Of a stretch of 64,000 bases of DNA, positions 5,848 through 59,946 are shown in pieces (the first letter of the stretch is position 1; each line of letters begins with the position of its first letter). Made by a program: the position numbers and the translations under genes. The DNA lies in contig JAKCFJ010000004.1 of NCBI GenBank assembly GCA_025041175.1, positions 248,001-312,000 on the forward strand, written 5' to 3'. The notes beneath the pieces were generated by a model that did not search any database, had not been told where the DNA came from, and was given only the letters and a program-made list of their open reading frames with translations. The stretch is from Halobacteriales archaeon YIM A00010. Lineage in GTDB: Archaea; Halobacteriota; Halobacteria; Halobacteriales; Haloarculaceae.

Positions 5848-6333
5848 GGACTATCTACCACCGGTCGTCCTTGATACGACTGTCCTGCCCTGTTTTGCGA
5901 GCTCGGAGGACCTCCACCTTCTCGATGTGCTGTCCATCCGGTTTGTCACCGTCGAGGCGGTCGTCGAGGACTACGAACCGGCGTCGACCGCGGCCATGAC
6001 GTTCTCGCCCCGGCCATCGAGGCCGTCGAGGTACCCACTGTCGACGGGGCACCCGGGCCGATGCTTGAGGGGCTCGATCACGGCGAAATCCACGCTCTCT
6101 ACGTGGCGTTCCAGCGCGAGGGCACGATCGTCACTGACGATGGGCCCGCTCGCGATCGAGCCGACGACCTCGGCGTCCCGGTGACCGGCTCGATCGGCCT
6201 GCTGATCCGGCTCGTTCGCGAGGAACACATCACCGTCGACGAGGCCGATGCGATCCACCACCACTGGGTGACCGAAGAGGGCTTTCGCTTGCCCGTCAGC
6301 AGCATTGCCGACGCACTTGATCGACTCGACTAA
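5834..6333 (+). pseudogene. DUF3368 PIN-like toxin, frameshifted copy
   Basis: Reads MTRIKDYLPPVVLDTTVLPC, then LHLLDVLSIRFVTVEAVVED in one frame. It continues from about 5980 in another frame as AIEAVEVPTVDG, then LDHGEIHALYVAFQREG, TDDGPARDRADDLGVPVTGS and GLLIRLVREEHIT. Both halves align end to end with the intact protein at 47158-47643 (VVLDTTVL vs IVLDATVL; GEIHALY vs GEAYALQ; TDDGPARDRADD vs TDDRQARAHATD). A single-base indel around 5970-5985 therefore breaks the gene. The PIN acidic residues are retained in the two halves. It is either a dead toxin or an assembly error. Confidence 0.75.
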
Positions 6334-6370
6334 GTTTGACTCTTCGCCGGTAGACTCGGAATCGTCGGAG

Positions 6371-6460
6371 ATGTCCGAGGAGCCAGAACGGGACGAAGAC
6401 GCCGATCCAGACGTGGAACTGGACCAGCAGCGGACGTTGGACGAGTTCATTCGCGTGTAG
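6371..6460 (+). other. Short acidic C-terminal remnant ending in a PIP-box-like motif
   Basis: An open frame directly after the DUF3368 remnant ends in an acidic stretch followed by QRTLDEFIRV and a stop. QxxLxxF at a protein C-terminus is the pattern by which archaeal replication and repair enzymes bind PCNA. Only about 30-40 residues are open and no catalytic domain is attached. I read it as the tail of a lost gene rather than a working peptide. Identification rests on the motif alone. Confidence 0.3.
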
Positions 6461-6846
6461 TGGACCATCATCCCCGTCACCCGGTGAGCAGCTGTTCAAG
6501 CTGCTCGCGGTGAGGCCCATCGCCCTTGACAGTCTCATCGGGGTGCCCTCAGTACTCCTGATCGAGTTTGCTAACGAACGCGGCCGTCTTAGGAGATCAG
6601 ATCGATCGTGAGTGGGTCAGAACCTGAGACTGCTACTCTCAATGCATGAGTGGAGCATCCGTCGTTACACCCGTTCCCAACTCAGCTCGCATCGGCCGGC
6701 CTGCTGGACTCCGCAGTCGGTGCTTGGTTTCGGCGGGGCTGCTGCCTCGAAGGCACAGTGGACGGATTTGGGAATAGGATCAAGCAGGTGGGGGCCCGAA
6801 TCACTGCGTCGCCCTGCTGGTGATCCAGCGCAACACCGTTGCTGAG
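6461..6846. other. Gene-poor gap with one decayed minus-strand fragment
   Basis: No convincing gene. On the minus strand about 6590-6477 reads KTAAFVSKLDQEY, an in-frame TGA, then GHPDETVKGDGPHREQLEQL and a stop. This looks like the decayed tail of a coding sequence but I cannot name it. The rest carries no feature I can support. Confidence 0.35.
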
Positions 6847-7656
6847 TCAGAGATCAAGTGCGGTTTGGAGCCTGGTGAGAAGCCCGCCCTGGAGATCGAA
6901 GATCTGCGTCATCTCCTCGTCTGTGAGTTCGAAGTCGAAAACGTTGAAGTTCGCCTGGATATGTGCGGGGCTCGATGCCTTTGGGATTGCCGAGACCTGT
7001 TCTTGCTGGAGGAGCCACCGCAACGCGACCTGGGCATCAGTCTTCCCATATCGAGCGCCGATCTCCTTGAGGCGGTCGTTGCCGATGACCCGGCCTTCCG
7101 CCAGGGGACTGTAGGCGGTCAGCATAACCTCGTTTTCGATGCAAAACTCGAGCAGGTCGGCCTGCTCCTTGAACGGGTGATACTCCACCTGATTGGTGAG
7201 AATCGGGGTGTCGGAGGCCGCGATTGCGTCCTGCAGTTGGCCGACAGAAAAGTTGCTGACCCCGATGTGCCGGACTGTTCCCCGCTCCTGGAGGTCGTTC
7301 ATCGCCGCAATCGACTCCTCGATCGGGATGGTACGACTCGGGGAGTGAATCAACAGCAGATCGATGTCGGTGGCCAACCGCTCGTGGCTTTCCTCGACGG
7401 ACTCGAGGACGTCATCGTGCGCGAGGTTCTGGCGGAGGATCTTCGTCACGAGGAAGAAATCGTCGCGCGGCACGTCGGCAGCCGCGATTGCCTGGCCCAC
7501 TTCCCGCTCGTTATTGTACATCTGGGCCGTGTCGACGTGCCGGTACCCGGTTTCCAACGCCTGGTGGACTGCGGTTTGACACGTCTCGCCTCTCATCGGG
7601 TACGTCCCAAAGCCCAGTGCTGGGACGTCCACACCCTGGGTGGTTACGTATTCCAT
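6847..7656 (-). CDS. Aldo/keto reductase
   Basis: NADPH-type aldo/keto reductase, 269 aa, a TIM-barrel oxidoreductase acting on aldehydes or ketones. The catalytic tetrad is visible: Asp42 and Tyr47 in HVDTAQMYNNE, Lys72 in LVTKI and His104 in LLLIHSP. Family signatures are ALETGYRHVDTAQMY near the N-terminus and IPKASSPAHIQANFNVFDF near the cofactor-binding C-terminus. Length and start (ATG at 7656) fit the 2,5-diketo-gluconate reductase-like subgroup. It is intact, unlike most of its neighbours. No operon partner is seen, and the substrate cannot be predicted. Confidence 0.9.
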   Translation of the reverse strand: MEYVTTQGVDVPALGFGTYPMRGETCQTAVHQALETGYRHVDTAQMYNNEREVGQAIAAADVPRDDFFLVTKILRQNLAHDDVLESVEESHERLATDIDLLLIHSPSRTIPIEESIAAMNDLQERGTVRHIGVSNFSVGQLQDAIAASDTPILTNQVEYHPFKEQADLLEFCIENEVMLTAYSPLAEGRVIGNDRLKEIGARYGKTDAQVALRWLLQQEQVSAIPKASSPAHIQANFNVFDFELTDEEMTQIFDLQGGLLTRLQTALDL

Positions 7657-54319: not shown

Positions 54320-56251
54320 ATGTCATTAACGAACAGCTCGGCCCCGACGTTCGATATTCAGTGGAATTCATTCTACGAGCACTCCGGTTGCTCGACTGGG
54401 ACCCACAACGAACGCTATCGGTTTTCACTTCGGTATATCGGGACAACAGCAGACGATCCGACCGTCGAAGACCTAATCGGCGATCTTTCGGTCGATCCAG
54501 ACCTTCCCGACGCACGCGCCACGTGGCACCGCAACTACACGCCGCTCGCTCCATGGATCAGAGCGCACGTCCTCAAGCAGGCGATGGACTGGAACGGCGA
54601 GAAACAGCTCGCTGACCACTTCGAGGGACACCCGACACTGGCGGTGGAATATGGGTTCGTTGGTGATGGCCCGACGGCGCAGCCGGAAACGGTTCGCTCC
54701 AATCCACCGGCACAATCTCGACTCTGGGAGATATGGCACGAGGAGTTCAGCGACGTCCTCCGGGACATCTGCCGTGACATAGCGTCCGAACTCGTCGAGC
54801 TGGCGCGCGAAAAGGGCATTCCTGTTCCAGACGACGTCTTTCAGCCCGACGACGAGCAGAACGGCTCAGAGCGATCAAAAACACGACTCATCGCGGACAC
54901 GACCAAGGAGGTCTGGCAGCACGTCAAGCCGTTTGTCACTGAGGAGTTCTTCCTGAAACGCGGCGACAATGCCCAAATTCACGAGAACGCGTTCTGGGAA
55001 CAACACGCGTTCATGGGCGTTCGGAAGAATATGTTCGCCGAGAGCGGCGCGGACAGTTTCTACGTCGACTCGACCCGTGAGAGAACGCCCTCCGGGTCGA
55101 CGCACCGCTGGCAAATCCGCAAGCTCTCCATTGAGGAAATGCGCCGACAACACCGACAGACTACGAAGCGCCTCATTGAGCGCGCACGACGTGACGGCGA
55201 ACTCGTTGGCAAGCTGTGGGCAGCGATCGACATGACGAAGGGATCGCCGTTCACCGGTGAGATGGACACCGACGAAGAGGGGAACGTCGTCGAGCCATAC
55301 ATCCTTGGTCACCGGAACGGGAATTACTACCACCAGTGGGCGAGCATCCAGATCGTCGGCCACGACATCCCGCTCGTGCTTGACGCGCTACCGAAAAAGC
55401 GCGGCATGGCGAAGGACGAAATCGTTGATGAACTGCTCGAACACGCGACCGAGATGGTTGACGACATCGATCTCGTGATGATGGACCGGGAGTTCGATAG
55501 CGATTCGGTCAAAGACACATGCGAGAAATACGGCGTGTATTCCCTCAATCCGAAGCGGAAATTCGCCGCCCAGAACGACACTATCGCGGAGATGAAACGA
55601 AACGGAGAGACGATCCGCATCGTTGAACAGTCATCCGAGGACCAATCGAACCGAACGCATCTCTTCCTGCCCTCAACAACGGAGATGCCGGACGAAGAGA
55701 TATCAGCCGGGACGGAGAGGGACCCCGATCGCATCGAGCGGCCGAACTACCGCCAGGAGATGTGCGAGGAACTGGGAATCGACGAGGCGGAGCTTGGCGA
55801 GGAGATCTCCCCGCTAGCACGCTTGCTCAGCGACCTCCGTGGCGAAGATGAGGATCTATAGACAACAGACGCCGACGGTGATGGCACGGGGTTCGTCGTA
55901 TTCCAGACCAACCATCCGTTCGTCTCGGCCCGTGACGAGGAGGGTGAGCCATACGACAAACACGAACGGATGCACATGGTCACGCGGCTGATTCGGTGGT
56001 ACCGCTATCGCTGGGGTATCGAGAACGGGTATAAGACGATCAAGACGTTCATGGTCCGAACCACCTCGACGTGTCCGCGCTACCGCTTTTTCAACTTCAT
56101 GTTCGCGTGCGTCCTGTACAACACGTGGCGGCTGGTGGACCTGCTCGTGAAGCTTTCGCTGGAGGAACATCCCGATTATTCGCCGCGGGTTGACGCCAAC
56201 CAATTCGTGACGATAGCGAAGCAATATTACGGTCTCGACCCGCCAGACTAA
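54320..56251 (+). pseudogene. DDE (IS4-like) transposase with an in-frame amber stop
   Basis: 513 codons to a TAG at 55859-55861, then the same frame continues (TTDADGDGTGFVVFQTNHPF, YRYRWGIENGYKTIKTFMVR) to 56251, giving 643 codons in all. Catalytic residues: Asp in LWAAIDMTKGSPF, Asp in IDLVMMDREFDSD and Glu in WGIENGYK, the last lying after the stop. So one nonsense change inactivates the enzyme. DDE transposases with Y-(2)-R-(3)-E-(6)-K like this belong to the IS4-type group. Terminal repeats were not resolved; TTTTCAG occurs near 54273 and, inverted, near 56379, which may mark ends. Confidence 0.8.
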
Positions 56252-57685: not shown

Positions 57686-58010
57686 TTAGTTCGTCTGCTC
57701 AGTGCCTGAAGCCGCTGTATCTCCGTCTCCCGTCCCGGTTTTCCCAAGCAGCATAGCGACCACGTAGACCCCGATGGCGGCGAGGACGATAGTTTCACCA
57801 GCAGCGAGATCATACGCGTACGCAACCGTAATGCCGAGAATCACCGCGAGTTCAGCCGCGATGATGGAAACGAGGAGCGATTCCTTGAAGCTTCGGGCGA
57901 CCTGCGAGGCGGCCGCGACCGGGACGACAAGAATTGCTGCCACGAGGATGACACCCATGAGTTACATCAACGCGACGACGAGTGCAGTGAGCATCAGCCA
58001 AACAAGCATC
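57686..58010 (-). pseudogene. ZnuB-like metal ABC permease, C-terminal fragment with in-frame stop
   Basis: MGVILVAAILVVPVAAASQV with ARSFKESLLVSIIAAELAVI LGITVAYAYDLAAGETIVLA matches the last helices of zinc/manganese ABC permeases. Upstream the same frame reads WLMLTALVVALM, TAA, LMGVILVA, so an ochre codon interrupts it; earlier helices are gone. Beyond 58010 begins a palindrome and AT-rich DNA. Non-functional. Confidence 0.7.
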
Positions 58011-58069: not shown

Positions 58070-58546
58070 CTATAACGCCTGTTTCAGTGACTGTATCGCG
58101 CGTTTCATCCTGCCTTCGAGGTCTGCGATATCCTCTTCGTGCTGCTCTTCCAACTCTGAGAGCCGCGTCTCCAGCTCAGTGACGCGCTCTCTCAGGTGTT
58201 TCACCTCCTGGTGAGAGGGCAACGTCCTGATCTCATCGAGGTGCTTCTCACAGAACGCCAGGCCTTGCTCTGTGAGCTGCCACATGATGGCCTTGCTCCC
58301 GCCGCCGACGTAGGCCCGCCCGGCTTCCTCGACGAGCCCCCACCGCTCCAGCTTCTTCATGTGGTGGGTCATGGACCCACTGGGCACGTCAGCTGTCCGC
58401 CGCAAATCCGACGTGTTCATGCGCGATTCATCAGCTGCATGAAGTACCGACAGGAGGTCCTGCCGCCGCCGATCCAAGCTGGTAGCCATCTCCTCAAAGG
58501 TTGGCGTTATATCCCCAGTTCTCTCAGATTGTTTAGCATCAGCCAT
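58070..58546 (-). CDS. Winged-helix protein with C-terminal coiled coil
   Basis: 158 aa. Winged helix RRRQDLLSVLHAADESRMNT with SDLRRTADVPSGSMTHHMKK LERWGLVEEAGRAYVGGGSK, then a long coiled coil (EVKHLRERVTELETRLSELE with EQHEEDIADLEGRMKRAIQS). This layout is common for haloarchaeal plasmid- or island-borne DNA-binding proteins. It lies just beside the iteron-like GC-rich region and is transcribed away from it. A role in replication or partition control of that region is a guess from position. Confidence 0.8.
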   Translation of the reverse strand: MADAKQSERTGDITPTFEEMATSLDRRRQDLLSVLHAADESRMNTSDLRRTADVPSGSMTHHMKKLERWGLVEEAGRAYVGGGSKAIMWQLTEQGLAFCEKHLDEIRTLPSHQEVKHLRERVTELETRLSELEEQHEEDIADLEGRMKRAIQSLKQAL

Positions 58547-58829
58547 AGAGGGTTATTAGGCTTACAAGGCATTAATAATATCGGCATATCAGGCCTTGTT
58601 TGCTCTCCCGATAGAAACACATGGGCACCCCCCACCCACGTAGTGATATTGAATTGGCCCCAGTGTTGCAAACCAGTCTGGAATCTGATAGCGTCGAAGA
58701 GCGGCCCCCCAGCGGAGCGAAGCAAGGACTAAAAGCCAGGCGAGTTGCAGCCGATGTGGCACCCCAAGCTATCACGATGCTGACGCACTGCTGCGAGCGA
58801 CGATACAGACCGTCCATGGTGTTGCAACT

Positions 58830-59830
58830 GATGGACAGTCCGAGAGGGCGACGACTGACCGACAGTCACCCGTGCAAGCGACGCTGTGCAGTTCCGGTAC
58901 CGACGACGTTGGACAGTCAGCCAGGCAGCGACAGTGCCGAGAGCGAGGTGGTGTTGCCAGTACCGACAGTCAGGCCAACGCGATGACAGCGCTATCCAAG
59001 GGCGTCTCCACGCGTGGGACAGCACCCGGCTGCTGTCTGCCGATGTTACCGCGTGTCCACGGTGGGACAGTCCGGCCGAGCGCCGACAGCGCTGGAACCG
59101 CACCGTAGCGGTGGGACCGCGCCAACAGGCCGTGGCAGGCCGCCCTGTGACGACCGGACAGCCGGCCAGCTGCAACTGGTGGGGTGCCCCACCGAGTGCA
59201 CCACCGCGTTTCCGGAGACCGACGACTAACCGGGTGCCGGCCACGTGCAACACACCGGAGTTCCGCTGTAAACCGCACCGCTGCGCGGGTGCCACGCGAG
59301 CGACGACTGGCCACGGGTGCCCACGGTTGTACCACACCGAATTTCATGAGAAAACCGCAACACAGCCTGGGGTGCCCAGCTGCGTCACTCCGGTGGGGTG
59401 CCGGCTGGAGCGAAAGAGACGATCTCCTCGAGGACGCTGCCGACGACCAGCCCGAACCGGCTGCGGGTGCCACTATGTGCAATAGTGGGGGGTGCTGGCC
59501 GGCAAGACCAGGTGACCGGGACCGATGTGGCGCCCGAGCAGCAGCGCGATGACCGGCCCGGCTGTCCGCCGTGGCTCCCGTGGGACTGTCTGCCGGCGTC
59601 CAATCCCGTCTCTGTCTGGTGGTTTCCACCCACGGCTGTCCACCCGCTACCGAATGCCCGACTGTCAGGCCGAGCGCAAGCCACCGGCCACACCACAACT
59701 GATGACCACTGGTGGGCACCCACACTGGCAACCGAATACCCGGAGACCGCTGTATCGACGGCACCCGGCACCCAGGCCGGCTGCAATCACCGAGTGTCAC
59801 CGGACGATGGCTGGCCGACTGTCCGCCAAT
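58830..59830. repeat. GC-rich non-coding region with clustered, polarised short motifs
   Basis: GACAG occurs ten times on the plus strand between 58834 and 59161 (58834, 58861, 58912, 58930, 58965, 58985, 59018, 59066, 59085, 59157) and not again. CTGTC occurs at 59562, 59586, 59612, 59636, 59662 and 59819, and only once (59033) in the left part. GGGTGCC occurs seven times in the centre: 59182, 59232, 59287, 59315, 59370, 59396, 59465. Spacings are not multiples of three, and the overlapping long frames (including 302 codons on the minus strand) have composition unlike haloarchaeal proteins, so it is not coding. Function unknown. Confidence 0.6.
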
Positions 59831-59946
59831 CGCCACCCCGCCGGTCGGGAGATCTCTGTTGGGAGCATGATTGATCACTTCCGTCTAAGGTCTGATCGAG
59901 TGAAGAGAAGAATCAGCGATCACGATCAGGTACTGGAACGGTGGTC

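Follow-up and report, generated by a model that had tools for sequence, protein, structure and literature searches.

The locus and its features

The window analysed here is a stretch of 64,000 nucleotides on contig C4 (812,767 bp) of a Halocatena-like genome. It contains a 1.2-kb gene-free stretch in which short words follow one another in strict left-to-right order. We refer to this stretch as the array. An initial annotation placed it at 58830-59830, but the element is wider and runs from about 58600 to 59850. The features are as follows.

58070..58546, minus strand: winged-helix (wHTH) plus coiled-coil protein of 158 aa, with a MarR/PadR-like fold model (pLDDT 85)
58565..58612, plus strand: AT-rich stretch, a putative wHTH promoter (possibly divergent), and then CTCCCGAT, the left-edge signature
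58624..58630, minus strand: outer B' motif GGCACCC
58758..58776, minus strand: outer B' box GGCACCCCAAGCTATCACG, a GGCACCC and then a TATCAC-like box, common to most homologous arrays
58834..59072, plus strand: left zone, GACAGTC five times (58834, 58861, 58912, 58965, 59066)
59182..59495, plus strand: centre zone, GGGTGCC seven times (59182, 59232, 59287, 59315, 59370, 59396, 59465) and GGGTGCT at 59490
59584..59823, minus strand: right zone, GACTGTC at 59584, 59660 and 59817 together with shorter CTGTC copies
59715..59773, minus strand: right outer B' motifs, GGCACCC at 59715, 59760 and 59767

The motif counts, positions and spacings given by the initial annotation are all correct. GACAG has 10 copies at 58834-59157, the GGGTGCC copies are 50, 55, 28, 55, 26 and 69 bp apart, and CTGTC is found 6 times at 59562-59819, with a lone copy at 59033 as well. 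Each zone was compared with 2000 dinucleotide-preserving shuffles, and no shuffle reached the observed count for any of the three words. GACAG occurs 9 times in the tested zone (shuffle mean 1.3), GGGTGCC 7 times (0.08) and CTGTC 6 times (0.7). The array scores 37, while every other 1-kb stretch of the window is far below (8). The core words are longer than first reported, namely GACAGTC (5, left) and GACTGTC (3, right), and they have palindromic flanks (GGAC-N-GTCC). The centre is GC-rich (about 0.63) and holds an inverted repeat, CCACTATGTGCAATAGTGG, at about 59470-59488. This centre zone is kept in the copies of contig C7, Halocatena salina and Actinarchaeum halophilum. In Halocatena and several Haladaptatus copies the wHTH start is preceded, at a distance of about 60-75 bp, by a box of the CTCCCGA or TTCCCGA type.

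Elsewhere in the window, a 90-aa piece at 57686-57958 (minus strand) matches the ABC-3 transporter family at its C-terminal end (188-257 of 258) and is probably truncated. On the plus strand a 513-aa ORF without a Pfam match (54320-55861) is followed by a short ORF (55970-56251). To us these two look transposase-like, and perhaps they are one interrupted gene.

The same layout on other plasmids

A search of other haloarchaeal replicons found the layout of GGCACCC, GACAGTC copies, GGGTGCC copies and GACTGTC copies at 16 loci besides the window copy, which makes 17 on plasmids of several families. When 391 genomes were searched for triplets of GACAGTC, arrays came up together with many tandem coding repeats, so a match was kept only if the other zones were present. 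Related arrays are on plasmids of Halocatena (including H. salina, whose copy is partly decayed), Actinarchaeum (A. halophilum), Haladaptatus, Natrinema, Haloterrigena and further relatives. H. salina and A. halophilum are relatives within the genus group of this genome. This genome alone has three intact arrays, on C4, C7 (65,107 bp) and C5 (63,437 bp). There is also a decayed relic of the same array on C4 (L017 ~6300-7100, or G000:C4 ~549300-550100). One more locus, L064 (G313:C5), has GACAGTC and GACTGTC zones without an exact GGGTGCC. A description of such an array was sought in the open-access literature and none was found.

The module order is fixed as B'(GGCACCC) - A(GACAGTC) - B(GGGTGCC) - A'(GACTGTC), with a pitch of about 26 bp. 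Across the 16 loci with a GGGTGCC zone, GACAGTC occurs 75 times to the left of that zone and GACTGTC 0 times, and to the right of it the counts are 0 and 75. A reduced locus set gives 43/0 on the left and 0/51 on the right. Put another way, GGAC-A-GTCC on the left and GGAC-T-GTCC on the right is a centre-base rule without exception over 16 loci. Such strict polarity is unusual in itself. We reject a simple inversion of a binding site, since the flanks of A' look like the flanks of A on the same strand. In the pooled loci, which were thinned of close relatives although some remain, adjacent words tend to lie whole multiples of about 25.7 bp apart (R 0.80, n 153). The spacing of about 27 bp first proposed was therefore close. 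The reduced set gives 24.9 bp with R 0.82, against a maximum of 0.41 among 2000 uniform draws.

Some pump loci have a similar layout written in different words: GGATGTCC / GGGGTCC / GGACATCC. This second vocabulary is present at three loci (L028, G313:C9 and part of G401:C24). Here GGATGTC is the left word, GACATCC the right word and GGACCCC the outer one, and GGGGTCC stands mainly in the centre. There are zero polarity violations where the zones are present, and the pitch is less regular. A third word set forms short arrays at two further loci. As we read these few loci, palindromic flanks with a polar centre may be the rule that the vocabularies have in common.

The array is not a gene

The window array and its homologous C7 copy are 83% identical. 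Of their indels, 16/19 are not multiples of 3, and the substitutions show no codon phase. This rules out a coding gene, in keeping with the initial annotation's view that the array is not protein. The large gaps between the two copies (78, 25 and 48 bases) resemble whole modules. Motif bases are identical at 130/133 positions versus 804/908 for the rest (Fisher P=0.0003). The array is a non-coding conserved cis element of haloarchaeal plasmids, tied to conjugation-like pump genes. The earlier label of an iteron or centromere-like locus holds in spirit, in that the element is conserved, periodic, non-coding, cis and on plasmids.

A winged-helix gene and a pump gene beside most arrays

In the majority of copies the wHTH gene, which faces a VirD4/HerA-type pump gene (T4CP), has the array immediately upstream of it. 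A T4CP gene or fragment adjoins the wHTH gene on the opposite strand in 28/30 of the wHTH-family loci examined. The arrays sit 1-1.9 kb or less upstream of the T4CP-facing wHTH gene, and VirB4-like ATPase genes lie beside the T4CP gene. The window copy is one of the two exceptions among the 30: its wHTH gene is intact and the pump gene is absent nearby. The link to T4CP was invisible to the initial annotation because the VirD4/VirB4-type transfer genes are missing at this copy. Two arrays are solo in this sense. The window copy has a wHTH gene and no pump, and G403:C4 has neither. Both genomes carry an array with a pump on other plasmids (C5 and C7 here, C5 in G403).

The T4CP protein models as HerA/TrwB-like, with profile matches to DotL, FtsK and HerA. 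We read the helix and strand elements of the model at about 530-606 as a putative fused winged helix. T4CP relatives are found in 98/391 Halobacteria genomes searched and the wHTH family in 25. A search of viral contigs for relatives of the wHTH protein found none. An array in a known vocabulary is absent at several loci with both T4CP and wHTH genes (G053, G055, G435, G000:C2 and others). Three Haladaptatus plasmids (L023, L024, L025) have an SNase (thermonuclease-family) gene on the far side of the array. The A. halophilum plasmid and C7 have SNase genes as well, the one on C7 with a lamin tail domain.

It is natural to ask which protein reads the words. The adjacent winged-helix protein had been put forward as a candidate binder, and it is indeed linked to the array in most copies. 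However, changes in the words are not matched by changes in its recognition helix. Loci with identical words carry very different wHTH recognition helices. Nor does the wHTH tree follow the word classes. C5, which has the first vocabulary, is joined there by two loci of the second (100/99 support), and the remaining second-vocabulary locus is placed elsewhere. The recognition helices agree with the tree, in that C5 (GACAGTC class) falls together with Hdom4 and G401:C24 (GGATGTCC class). Since the helix does not track the words, the candidate binder is doubtful and we do not favour it as the sequence reader. The T4CP tree does keep the second vocabulary together (100/99). Among first-vocabulary loci, though, the winged helix of the T4CP differs greatly, and similar domains occur with different words. 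The pump's winged helix shows no clear tracking of the words either, and it is at most a candidate reader.

What the array may do

A role in the initiation of transfer is the best-supported reading, and its basis is gene context. The array would act in cis as the place at which plasmid DNA is recognised or loaded for transfer, resembling clt or oriT. We regard this as a good possibility, if somewhat short of probable. In this scenario the plasmid would be recognised at the array and loaded onto the VirD4/HerA-like pump for transfer from cell to cell. The A and A' motifs, being opposite in polarity, would direct loading either toward the B zone in the centre or away from it. Pump-less copies (the window copy and G403:C4) would depend on a sister plasmid, whose pump would mobilise them in trans. 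This genome has closely similar arrays on both C4 and C7, which a transfer site would accommodate more easily than a replication or partition site. Four observations count against a transfer site. The same words occur with very different pump domains and different words with similar ones, several loci with T4CP and wHTH genes have no array in a known vocabulary, the pump gene is absent near the window copy, and a simple double-stranded binding site does not explain the strong strand asymmetry.

Archaeal conjugative plasmids have pump genes but no recognisable relaxases (PMC9905601). This raises the question how the DNA to be sent is chosen. An array tied to a VirD4-like pump is a concrete and testable candidate for how the transferred DNA is picked. 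It also offers a sequence tag with which to recognise haloarchaeal replicons that can be mobilised. If the array is a start signal for transfer, it is of a kind that has no known example in archaea. One can go further and propose a cis-acting DNA-transfer locus, the first to be described from archaea, with direction written in the central base (GGAC-A-GTCC left, GGAC-T-GTCC right) and with vocabularies that differ by plasmid lineage while the layout stays constant. We hold that fuller proposal only tentatively, and it is rather doubtful as a whole.

Behind transfer we rank partition, then a functional single strand, then replication. A centromere-like partition site would require the wHTH protein to coat the 26-bp modules, like AspA on Sulfolobus pNOB8, and to link the plasmid to ParA. 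AspA binds a palindromic site upstream of its own gene and spreads on the DNA (PMC5120986). The palindromic flanks of the core words (GGAC-N-GTCC) suit such a protein. The wHTH profile weakly matches AspA (E 0.008), and the wHTH model resembles 4rs8, the centromere-binding protein of pNOB8 (TMt 0.68), which suggests a similar fold. There is even a ParA gene about 10 kb from the array on the A. halophilum plasmid. However, ParA is not adjacent in the copies of this genome: the nearest ParA-like match lies about 100 kb from the array on C4 and 28 kb from it on C7, and there is none on C5. The recognition helix does not follow the motif words, and some arrays lack any wHTH gene. We therefore consider partition unlikely, though it is the strongest of the alternatives.

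Another scenario is that a single strand is the functional form, either as a long RNA transcribed away from the wHTH promoter or as exposed ssDNA, with GGACAGTCC on the left pairing with GGACTGTCC on the right. This would make sense of the strand asymmetry. The plus strand is T-poor and A-rich, with an AT skew of about +0.4 on the left. The flanks of A' resemble those of A in the same strand direction (64/80), GCGAC follows the motifs almost always on one strand, and the left edge with a TATA-like element and CTCCCGAT recurs. When the C7 copy is folded, four A-A' pairs come to lie nested. Set against this, the structured RNA suggested by the initial annotation is not supported. An Rfam family is rejected, as nothing matched up to E=1, and neither windowed folding nor global folding of the plus strand is better than that of shuffles. 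The mean windowed folding z is about -1 to +0.5 on both strands at 12 loci, and the global z of the plus strand is +0.4 to -1.6. The minus strand folds globally with z of -2.2 to -2.7 at four loci (16 shuffles each). Identical words across copies are also unusual for RNA helices, which normally co-vary. We consider a functional single strand unlikely, slightly more so than partition. The right zone of the C5 array (L018 ~2500-2760) has a plus strand that is extremely A-/C-rich, with an AT skew of 0.51 and a GC skew of -0.49.

Whatever the family does elsewhere, the window copy could be a functionless remnant or a decaying copy. The pump gene is absent nearby, a clearly decayed relic exists elsewhere on C4, and the H. 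salina copy is partly decayed. We think this improbable because the wHTH ORF is intact, all zones are present, and the motif bases are the better kept part of the alignment with C7. An iteron-like origin of plasmid replication is the least credible scenario: regularly spaced short repeats do lie close to a DNA-binding protein gene on plasmids, and C5 and C7 have no Orc1 gene, but about 127 kb separate the C4 array from the nearest Orc1/Cdc6 gene, the GC skew has no clear turning point at the array (C5, C7, A. halophilum plasmid), three copies with the same vocabulary coexist in one genome, and the GC-rich centre is unlike an AT-rich unwinding zone.

Comparison with known systems

The array has partial parallels elsewhere. 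Among them are the Fsx1-bearing integrated mobile elements of archaea, which are described as carrying VirB4, TraG/VirD4 and HerA genes; the portions of that account considered here do not mention an array, unlike the loci described above (PMC9259645). The AspA-ParB-ParA system of pNOB8 is also on an archaeal plasmid and has a wHTH gene beside a palindromic DNA site. It differs in that the array has no adjacent ParA/ParB, many modules, two word types, and a recognition helix that does not follow the words.

A bacterial oriT is a cis-acting site linked to a VirD4-type coupling protein, as the array may be. An oriT with its relaxase differs from the array, where no nic site is recognised and no relaxase was found near the copies examined. 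A PF03432 relaxase search of this genome gave one match (28.4 bits, on C3) and none on C4, C5 or C7.

Like the array, the clt locus has a wHTH regulator gene close by. Streptomyces TraB reads the 8-bp clt repeats through a C-terminal HTH (PMC5365140). In both cases short repeats lie in non-coding DNA close to the gene of a DNA pump of the FtsK/HerA superfamily that has a winged helix, although for the pump beside the array that helix is our reading of a model. Unlike clt, the array has a polar three-zone order, a pitch of about 26 bp, and two word types with a flipping centre. Its pump is VirD4/HerA-like with a VirB4 partner, and its role in cis is a proposed one. KOPS-type sequences are short polar words with conserved orientation that FtsK reads genome-wide. 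The words of the array are oriented too and could orient a DNA motor in the same way, but they do so locally, within about 1 kb.
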